Assembly: GCF_000234805.1 (NCBI RefSeq)
Contig: NC_016645.1
Coordinates: 2,146,391-2,210,390, forward strand
Reading direction: 5' to 3'
DNA: 64,000 nucleotides
From: Pyrobaculum ferrireducens
GTDB taxonomy: Archaea > Thermoproteota > Thermoprotei > Thermoproteales > Thermoproteaceae
The position numbers and the translations under genes were made by a program. Shown here piece after piece: positions 1 to 27,351 of this stretch (the stretch's first letter is position 1; every line of letters begins with the position of its first letter). The notes below the pieces were generated by a model. That model did no database searches. It had not been told where the DNA came from and saw nothing but the letters and a program-made list of their open reading frames with translations.

Positions 1-315
1 AGCGGCGTCCACGGCGCCGTATTGGTGTACCACAATATTTCTAAACCTCACCACGGCTCTGTACCTCTTAAACTCGTCCTCGTCTATAACTCCCGCGGTC
101 CTCAGCTTCACGCCGGCGTCGATATAGCCCTCCACCTCCATGCCAAGCGCCGCCGCCGCCTTAACGGCTATGTCTATGAGCGCCTGGGCCTGCGCCTGGA
201 GCATGTAGACAGCTGAGAAGAACTTATACACATCGTCGAGGTCCTCAACTTTCACGTTGTCGAGTAGCGACGTGTAGTACAGAAGGAGCTTAAGTATCCT
301 CTCTACTGCGCCCAT
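1..315 (-). CDS. HepT-like HEPN-domain toxin/RNase (3' part cut by window edge)
   Basis: A 105-codon open frame on the minus strand that leaves the window without a stop, so the C-terminus is missing. The start is an ATG at 315, inside the last codons of the upstream nucleotidyltransferase gene (13-base overlap). The protein is mostly helical and contains RNIVVHQY at about residues 93-100, which fits the Rx4HxY motif of HepT-type HEPN RNases. In this family the HEPN protein is an RNase toxin and the adjacent MNT protein neutralises it, in characterised cases by adding AMP to the Tyr of this motif. Order here is antitoxin first, toxin second. Function is inferred from motif and pairing. Confidence 0.8.
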   Translation of the reverse strand, partial: MGAVERILKLLLYYTSLLDNVKVEDLDDVYKFFSAVYMLQAQAQALIDIAVKAAAALGMEVEGYIDAGVKLRTAGVIDEDEFKRYRAVVRFRNIVVHQYGAVDAA

Positions 316-713
316 TTCCTCATCACGGCCTTTATCTGTGTCTCTAAAAGCTCAAGCTTTTCCGAGTCGATCATAAAGTCGAAACAGGGATACAGCAACC
401 TAGATCTAATTTCTAGAAACTCGTCGAGATTTCTGAAATAGAGAACTCTGCCCCGACCCAGCACGTCTATTATAAGCGAGCACGGGAGGCTCTCGTAGCC
501 GTTTAGAACCACCAGATCCACGTCCTCCTCCCTGACCCCGAGAAATCTAGCCAAGGCGTACAAAAGATCCACGTCCCTATCCACGTCCTCTAGCCAGACC
601 CCGATATCCCAATCACTCTTCACAGCTCTCCCCCACGCCCTCGAGCCGAACAGCACAGAGAAAACTACAGAAAACTCCCTCCACGGGAAGAGGCGTAGCT
701 TTTCAATATCCAC
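303..713 (-). CDS. MntA-like nucleotidyltransferase (antitoxin of HEPN/MNT pair)
   Basis: 136 residues, GTG start at 713. A GS-x9-DxD motif (GSRAWGRAVKSDWD, about residues 23-36) marks the minimal nucleotidyltransferase fold; the second half carries a conserved-looking hydrophobic core and an acidic stretch (EEDVDLVVL) that may supply the third carboxylate. It precedes and overlaps the HepT-like gene by 13 bases, the classic translational coupling of HEPN/MNT modules. Such proteins are thought to AMPylate the partner toxin. A TATA-like stretch (minus strand, about 742-735) lies about 27 bases upstream of the GTG and supports this start. Confidence 0.8.
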   Translation of the reverse strand: MDIEKLRLFPWREFSVVFSVLFGSRAWGRAVKSDWDIGVWLEDVDRDVDLLYALARFLGVREEDVDLVVLNGYESLPCSLIIDVLGRGRVLYFRNLDEFLEIRSRLLYPCFDFMIDSEKLELLETQIKAVMRKWAQ

Positions 714-758: not shown

Positions 759-776
759 TGGTTTTTGGTGCGTGGC

Positions 777-1013
777 GTGGAGCCCGACGTGACAGCCGCC
801 ATGTTGCGCCGGGTGGAGGAGCTACAGCGCCTCGCGGACAGCATAGCGGAGCACCACCCCTACTGGCCTGCGTTGCACTTCACGCTTCAATTGCTCAGAA
901 GGCTTGTGGAGAAGTGGCACGAGGACTTCAGCGGGGAGGAGTACGAAGAGCTGACTTGGCTGGCTGAGAAGGTGCTGGACAGCGTCAAGAAAATTCAGCC
1001 CCGACAGGAATGA
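777..1013 (+). CDS. small hypothetical protein
   Basis: About 78 residues, acidic and helical, with no motif I recognise. Three in-frame starts exist (TTG 765, GTG 768, GTG 777); the TATA box at 751-758 best fits a leaderless start at 777. The last codons overlap the candidate C/D-box sRNA on the opposite strand. The sequence is rich in Leu, Glu and Trp and has no signal peptide or membrane segment. It sits alone between a HEPN/MNT pair and malQ. Coding is likely from promoter spacing and composition, but the function is unknown. Confidence 0.55.
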   Translation: MEPDVTAAMLRRVEELQRLADSIAEHHPYWPALHFTLQLLRRLVEKWHEDFSGEEYEELTWLAEKVLDSVKKIQPRQE

Positions 1014-1047
1014 CATCACCAGTCAGGGGCGGCACACATCTTCACAC
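993..1047 (-). ncRNA. candidate C/D-box sRNA (2'-O-methylation guide)
   Basis: Read on the minus strand: C-like box GTGAAGA (1045-1039), 12-base guide, D' box CTGA (1026-1023), 3-base spacer, C'-like box GTGATGT (1019-1013), 14-base guide, D box CTGA (998-995). Order and spacing match archaeal C/D-box guide RNAs; C and C' each differ from the RTGATGA consensus at one position. A TATA box on the same strand (TATTTAAAG, 1073-1065) lies just past the malQ stop and predicts transcription starting near 1046, directly before the C box. The RNA is partly antisense to the end of the 777-1013 gene. I could not match the guides to rRNA or tRNA targets by eye. Confidence 0.6.
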
Positions 1048-1064
1048 AAAATCCCCGGGGCAGG

Positions 1065-1073
1065 CTTTAAATA
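1065..1073 (-). promoter_or_regulatory. TATA box for the candidate C/D-box sRNA
   Basis: TATTTAAAG read on the minus strand, immediately downstream of the malQ stop codon (1075-1077). No protein gene starts downstream of it on this strand, but the candidate sRNA does, at the expected distance of about 27 bases. Confidence 0.5.
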
Positions 1074-1074
1074 C

Positions 1075-2481
1075 TCAACGCCCGTAGAGCCGGGCTAGGC
1101 TCCTCAGCCTCCTCCACTGGCGTGGCTCCGGTTGCTTTGCCATCCTCCAGCGCCAGTTGCCTCCAACTGTGCCGGGGCGGTTCATCCTCGCCTCGGGGCC
1201 CAGCCCCAGCACGTCTTGCATGGGGACAACGGCCACGTCTGCGACGGACATGTAGGCCAGCTTTATGAAGCACCAGTTGACCGCCTCTCTGCAGTTACTG
1301 TACTGCCGGAACTCCCGCCGGGCCCGGGGGCTTGCCTCTTGGAGATACCACCCCACAGCGGTGTTGTTGTCGTGGGTTCCAGTGTACACCACGGAGTTTT
1401 TCACATGGTTGTGGGGCTTGTGGGGGTTTGCCGGGTTCCCGTCCCAGGCGAATTGAAGCACCCTCATGCCGGGGAGGCCCAGTTCGTCTCTCAGCGCCTC
1501 CACGTCGGGGGTTATGTAGCCGAGGTCCTCCGCAATGAGCCTTCCCAGCTCCACCGCCGCCGAGGCGGCGTCGAAGAGCCTCTTCCCCGGCGACGGGGCC
1601 CACCTCCCCCTCGCAGCCGTCGTCTCTCCCCCGGGAATCTCCCAGTAGGCCAGGTACCCCCTGAAGTGGTCAAGCCTCACGTAGTCGAATACCTCCAGCA
1701 TGTGTCTCAGCCGCTCCACCCACCATCTGTAGCCGTCACGCTCGAGGGCCTCCCAGTTGTAGACGGGGTTGCCCCAGAGTTGTCCCGTGGCTGAGTAGTA
1801 GTCCGGCGGCACGCCGGCGACGTAAAGAGGCTTGCCGTCATCCCCCACTTTGAAGTACTGTCTGTACCTCCACACGTCTACGCTGTCTACGCTGGGGTAG
1901 AAGGGGAGGTCGCCGATGAGGAGGATCCCCAGGTCGTTTACATACTGCTTAAGTCTCTCCCACTGGCTCCAGAAGACGAACTGGGCGAATTTATACAGCT
2001 CGACGAGGCGGCGCGGCGGCGCCTCATCCGGCCAGCGGCCCCACGGGCCGTGCCTCTCTCTCATCGCCATGTAGTATGCGTAGTCCTCCAGCCAGGGGGT
2101 CTTGTCCACGAAGTTTCTATAGTCGCTGAGGGCCCTCGCCTTTTTAAGCGCCTTCTCCAAGACGGCCCTCTTGACCTCCCACGCCTTTACGTAGTCCGCC
2201 CTCTCAGTCGCTGGGCACTGCGGCGCCTGGTCGACTAGGCCGTCTTTCTTCATGAGGTCTAGGCTTATGAGGACGGGGTCGCCGGCGAAGCTCGACACAG
2301 CGTTGTATGGAGAGTTTTCGTACTCGGGCAGGGTGTGGTTGATGGGGAGCGTCTGCCAGTAGGTCTGCCCGGCGTCGGCTAGGCCCTCGGCGAATTTATA
2401 CGCCTCGGGCCCCAGATCCCCCACGTAGCAGCCCCCGGGTAGGGAGGTTATGTGGAGGAGGATCCCCGCCCCTCTCAGCAT
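1075..2481 (-). CDS. malQ: 4-alpha-glucanotransferase (amylomaltase, GH77)
   Basis: 468 residues, close to full length for a compact GH77 enzyme. It transfers alpha-1,4-glucan segments between oligosaccharides or to glucose in glycogen/maltodextrin metabolism, in the cytoplasm. Visible motifs include the nucleophile Asp at about 271 in RLDHFRG, the acid/base Glu at about 318 in AEDLGY and the stabilising Asp at about 371 in GTHDNN; the N-terminus has the typical GILLHITSLPG. Its ATG shares one base with the stop of the upstream unknown gene, so the two are probably cotranscribed from the promoter at 2940-2933. No signal peptide is visible. Confidence 0.95.
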   Translation of the reverse strand: MLRGAGILLHITSLPGGCYVGDLGPEAYKFAEGLADAGQTYWQTLPINHTLPEYENSPYNAVSSFAGDPVLISLDLMKKDGLVDQAPQCPATERADYVKAWEVKRAVLEKALKKARALSDYRNFVDKTPWLEDYAYYMAMRERHGPWGRWPDEAPPRRLVELYKFAQFVFWSQWERLKQYVNDLGILLIGDLPFYPSVDSVDVWRYRQYFKVGDDGKPLYVAGVPPDYYSATGQLWGNPVYNWEALERDGYRWWVERLRHMLEVFDYVRLDHFRGYLAYWEIPGGETTAARGRWAPSPGKRLFDAASAAVELGRLIAEDLGYITPDVEALRDELGLPGMRVLQFAWDGNPANPHKPHNHVKNSVVYTGTHDNNTAVGWYLQEASPRARREFRQYSNCREAVNWCFIKLAYMSVADVAVVPMQDVLGLGPEARMNRPGTVGGNWRWRMAKQPEPRQWRRLRSLARLYGR

Positions 2482-26810: not shown

Positions 26811-26916
26811 CCAGCTCCGCGCCTAGCGTCGTCAAGAATTTTAACCTTGTTTGTACTGTGGATCGGGCTGGACTGCCGTGGATGCGGCTGGATGAGGGGC
26901 CCGCCCGCGGCCGAGT

Positions 26917-27351
26917 CTACATCTTTACTGCCTGTAGCTTCATGCCGCCTTCCAGCCACCCCTCTGGGTGGTACCAGTTCTTTACAATTCTGTAGCCGCA
27001 GTGGATGAGGAGCCTACCCAATCTAGTGGCTTCGGGCGGCTCTCCCCGCTGGAGGGCTTGGAAGGTTTGTAGGTCGTCTACGTATTCTGCATACAGCACG
27101 TCGCCTGGCTCCATGTGTCGGTGGAGTACGCAGTACACGTGGCGCTCCCACTCCGTGGCTATATACCTGGGGTTTATGTTGAAGACCTCGGCCCACGGGC
27201 CGTAGTAAGGCGGCCTCCCCGTGAAGATCTTTACGTGGCAGAGGAGGTCCTGGCCTATGTAGAGCTCTGCGTTATACTCCTCTTTAAATCTGCCCTTTTT
27301 AAACAGGGCGCGTAGGGGTGAGAAGGACTGGGGGGTGAGTTGGCTAAGCAC
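26917..27351 (-). CDS. DUF1122-like protein
   Basis: 144 residues from GTG 27351, which overlaps the end of the upstream 72-residue gene by eight bases. Segments such as YYGPWAEVFNI, EPGDVLYAEYVDD and NWYHPEGWLEGG match my memory of the DUF1122 family, a small archaeal/thermophile group possibly related to acyltransferase folds. It is cytoplasmic. The pattern of conserved Trp, Tyr and His suggests a ligand site. Biological role unknown. Confidence 0.65.
   Translation of the reverse strand: MLSQLTPQSFSPLRALFKKGRFKEEYNAELYIGQDLLCHVKIFTGRPPYYGPWAEVFNINPRYIATEWERHVYCVLHRHMEPGDVLYAEYVDDLQTFQALQRGEPPEATRLGRLLIHCGYRIVKNWYHPEGWLEGGMKLQAVKM

Follow-up and report, generated by a model that had tools for sequence, protein, structure and literature searches.

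In the window, the whole 64-kb stretch of Pyrobaculum ferrireducens DNA that was analysed, a short C/D-box motif lies on the minus strand directly behind malQ and overlaps by 19 nt the 3' end of a small ORF on the opposite strand, as the preliminary description had proposed; the identity of malQ is upheld by its Pfam match. The genome is a single contig of 2,467,972 bases and contains both fibrillarin and Nop5 genes. The features of the locus are as follows.

1075-2481, minus strand: malQ, 4-alpha-glucanotransferase of family GH77, upstream neighbour (Glyco_hydro_77, E 2.7e-148)
1073-1065, minus strand: TATTTAAAG, resembling a TATA box; it follows directly on the malQ stop and precedes the C box by 20-28 nt
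995..1045, minus strand: C/D-box sRNA core, C box to D box, 51 nt (motif search and homologues)
1045-1039, minus strand: C box GTGAAGA (consensus RTGATGA; fifth base T to A)
1038-1027, minus strand: D' guide TGTGTGCCGCCC (guide 1), 12 nt, pairing with 23S rRNA
1026-1023, minus strand: D' box CTGA (motif read)
1022-1020, minus strand: D'-C' spacer CTG, 3 nt (motif read)
1019-1013, minus strand: C' box GTGATGT (last base off consensus)
1012-999, minus strand: D guide CATTCCTGTCGGGG (guide 2), 14 nt, with a weak rRNA partner
998-995, minus strand: D box CTGA (motif read)
765-1013, plus strand: 82-aa ORF, function unknown (ORF list; homologues adjoin the sRNA in relatives)

The order and spacing first read from the letters (C - 12 - D' - 3 - C' - 14 - D) were reproduced exactly on the minus strand, where positions 1045-995 read GTGAAGA TGTGTGCCGCCC CTGA CTG GTGATGT CATTCCTGTCGGGG CTGA, and both C-type boxes carry the single deviation from RTGATGA that had been ascribed to them. 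The box order, the guides of about 9-14 nt and the short D'-C' spacer are those of the C/D-box class. When the arrangement was searched for with at most one mismatch per C-type box, exact CTGA, guides of 9-14 nt and a spacer of 1-7 nt, it was found once on the two strands of the window and in 0 of 60 dinucleotide-preserving shuffles. All four boxes have GA at the tandem G-A pair positions, which are invariant in all four boxes across the alignment of homologues. The fifth base of a C box is usually a U engaged in a U-U pair with the D box; here an A replaces this consensus U, with the G-A positions intact, and in most homologues the C box is GTGATGN and the C' box mostly GTGANGT. The mature sRNA is probably about 50-60 nt long.

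A TATA box specific to the sRNA had also been predicted at 1073-1065; the sequence is there, and a TATA-like block is kept in position across homologues. Among 12 non-redundant homologues, those in unrelated contexts included, the A+T content at -30 to -21 before the C box averages 80% against 52% overall, and when the upstream stretches were rotated at random 20,000 times, no rotation was as A+T-rich at this place. Transcription from archaeal promoters starts some 25 nt downstream of the TATA box, which would put the 5' end of the RNA at the C box or very shortly before it. Elsewhere in the window, a small Polbeta-family nucleotidyltransferase (303-713, minus strand; PF18765, E 8e-8) lies beside a small ORF (1-315, minus strand), an arrangement that may recall MNT-HEPN pairs.

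Conservation of the box pattern in relatives had been named beforehand as a check, and its absence as grounds for giving up the reading; boxes and guides are in fact kept in at least eight relatives, several of them with unrelated flanking DNA. BLAST with a 111-base query found the block of about 51 bases, with both guides, in genomes of Pyrobaculum and Thermoproteus type (G003, G002, G016, G017, G018, G015, G012 and, weakly, G010). In the alignment the boxes and guides are kept and the flanks are not, conservation ending at the boxes, and both guides of P. oguniense (G002) differ from those of the window solely at the base beside the C box. A sequence-only model was built from eight homologues, with G003 left out, and searched over 45 genomes of the order; it recovers its own members by construction, and it found G003, outside the model, at E 7e-13. 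A second group of homologues (G004, G009, G007 and G008; model E 1e-5 to 3e-7) differs in the D guide, which is ACAAACCTCCG or ACTAACCTCCG, and retains C box, D' guide and D'/C' region. In these malQ-linked copies (L104-L107, around 1501-1560) the D guides resemble one another, AC[AT]AACCTCCG, and no rRNA target stands out for them. Weaker matches in G005, G014 and G032, and in genomes such as G021 and G038, have a C-like box, a guide with TGTGCCGC or TTGTGCCGC and mostly a D'-like box, each being individually weak and judged by eye. The model search of the 45 genomes found no homologue in G006.

The surroundings of the homologues differ. The distance from malQ, ending in LYGR, to the sRNA is 29 nt in the window and 28-46 nt in G004, G007 and G008; in G009 the sRNA is flanked by malQ and a homologue of the 82-aa ORF, and in G010 by the ORF homologue only. 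In P. oguniense and the Thermoproteus-type genomes neither gene stands beside the sRNA and the flanks are unrelated, malQ of P. oguniense being about 25 kb away. Since the sRNA is kept where the order malQ, sRNA, 82-aa ORF is shared as well as at unrelated sites, neither coding nor regional conservation explains it.

A search of the two guides against rRNA and tRNA, also proposed at the outset, succeeded for one of them. The D' guide forms 11 contiguous Watson-Crick pairs with 23S rRNA at GGGCGGCACAC, beginning at the base that adjoins the D' box, and by alignment to E. coli 23S rRNA (E. coli numbering) the target is 2251-2261 in helix 80, the P-loop, with G2255 as the fifth nucleotide. Thus one guide of the sRNA is complementary to rRNA at the fifth-nucleotide register of the class. 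Taken alone the match is modest when compared with shuffled guides (P = 0.06). Positions 3-10 of the guide, with the core TGTGCCGC, are invariant and in one register in the homologues, including some with a different D guide, and positions 1-2 vary. G2255 was the best or joint-best rRNA site of the D' guide for each homologue tested, tests that are not independent because the sequences are related; with rRNA targets invariant among the relatives, guide-target covariation cannot show.

For the D guide no convincing target emerged. Its best rRNA partner is 23S CCCCGACGGG at site G2048 in domain V, with 10 pairs including one G-U, a match no better than chance (P = 0.51), and in G010 and G012 the outermost pairs with this region are lost. 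The D guide may be an orphan, a kind of guide described for Pyrobaculum (PMC7994747). Pairing with tRNA was no better than with rRNA (best 9 for the D' guide and 8 for the D guide, among 37 tRNA matches with flanks, genes with unusual introns possibly being missed). Over the whole genome, with up to two mismatches, the only exact match of the D guide is the sRNA gene itself, and the site with one mismatch, in apparently protein-coding sequence, is probably coincidental. As a separate observation on the rRNA genes, the archaeal SSU model matches the 16S gene of this genome (L026, G000:C1:127000-134200) piecewise, with additional blocks of sequence of about 0.7 kb; this suggests introns, and the 23S genes of G003, G008, G009, G010 and G018 are also interrupted.

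The locus has a conserved box motif, a D' guide in the proper register and a promoter-like block. It is best read, at a probability of about 0.9, as the gene for an archaeal C/D-box 2'-O-methylation guide sRNA that has a TATA box of its own immediately downstream of malQ, is transcribed leftward and has a D' guide directed to 23S G2255. We infer that the sRNA is expressed, assembled into an RNP and used for methylation. Transcription would proceed leftward from the TATA box; L7Ae, Nop5 and fibrillarin would then bind the kink-turn and k-loop formed by the C/D and C'/D' pairs, and the D' guide would pair with the P-loop of 23S helix 80 to direct methylation of the predicted site G2255. The target of the D guide may be G2048 in nearby domain V or lie elsewhere, or this guide may have none.

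Other origins for the motif were weighed against this reading. That C- and D-like strings merely fell into order by chance could be entertained because both C-type boxes are one base off and short motifs recur in a 2.5-Mb genome, but the empty shuffles and the conservation across two genera leave this with hardly any probability, and the conservation refutes it. A similarly minute probability attaches to the proposal that the stretch is conserved because it encodes the end of the 82-aa ORF or acts on this ORF as an antisense regulator, the boxes being incidental. The 19-nt overlap speaks for such an origin, as does the ORF end in G006, which keeps a CGGGGCTGAATT-like stretch without the remaining sRNA; however, the ORF covers the smaller part of the sRNA, conservation does not extend beyond the boxes, and the equivalent 51 nt occur in P. 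oguniense and the Thermoproteus-type genomes, where this ORF is not a neighbour, so that homologues at unrelated loci largely refute it.

An unlikely, though less remote, alternative is that the locus holds a decaying, inactive copy of the sRNA, with boxes and guides that can still be read, a degenerate C box and no stable RNA product. The C box here is GTGAAGA against GTGATGN in most homologues, and G006 has no homologue in the model search. In the closest relative, G003, a 4.9-kb insertion separates the malQ and TATA side from the sRNA and the C box is damaged, the break falling at this box; together with the missing G006 homologue, this indicates that the sRNA gene may be fading in part of the lineage. 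The window, on the other hand, retains intact D', C' and D boxes, two intact guides and an intact TATA box, the C box keeps its tandem G-A positions, and the guides match those of P. oguniense apart from the base adjoining the C box. The G003 insertion itself (L086:2313-7200; G003:C4 about 77812-82699) contains several ORFs that lack Pfam matches; one of them has a hit to a PHROG of unknown function (E 1e-9). A repeat of about 100 nt is also present there in three diverged copies.

As a guide sRNA gene, the locus belongs to a well-described kind. In box order and spacing, two guides, the fifth-nucleotide rRNA register, overlap with an ORF end and a hyperthermophilic crenarchaeal host it agrees with the archaeal C/D-box sRNAs of the Pyrobaculum and Thermoproteus sets (PMC4644070, PMC3558965, PMC7994747), and no structural difference from them was found, although its own TATA-like box is a feature that a review gives for only about 20% of such genes (PMC7994747). 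A permissive Rfam search brought up only C/D-box families at the locus, sR9 (RF01312), snoPyro_CD (RF00095), sR35 (RF01123) and sR23 (RF01138); the likeness is largely an alignment of box on box, with only the boxes in common, and at 15.5-17.8 bits against gathering thresholds of 36-60 the locus is a member of none. With the whole window searched at the gathering threshold, no Rfam family falls at the sRNA. The one match at that level in the window is PyrR210 (RF02808), a Pyrobaculum H/ACA-type sRNA, at 26864-26921 on the plus strand (70.6 bits). Sets of 83 predicted C/D-box sRNAs in P. oguniense (PMC3558965), and of 88 in P. calidifontis and 52 in T. tenax (PMC4644070), have been published, and since P. 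oguniense carries a near-identical homologue the family is probably already listed there and has probably been seen before.

In summary, the locus is a real but ordinary small-RNA gene, and through it the methylation map of a hyperthermophile gains a well-supported guide RNA that matches no Rfam family above threshold. A literature search found no papers naming G2255; methylation of the nearby G2251 has been predicted in three archaea, and the P-loop is the place that holds the end of the P-site tRNA (PMC4644070). G2255 is a testable site next to the P-loop nucleotides that do so. The comparison across genomes lends even odds to an order-wide sRNA family with one fixed and one exchangeable guide, in which the P-loop D' guide (G2255) would have been kept across Pyrobaculum, Thermoproteus and more distant genomes, whereas the malQ-linked locus would have exchanged its D guide one or more times and the gene would have changed its place in the genome. 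Guide turnover of this fixed and replaced kind has already been described in archaea (PMC4644070, PMC7994747), and a family with one constant guide and a replaced partner would bear on the evolution of guide RNAs.
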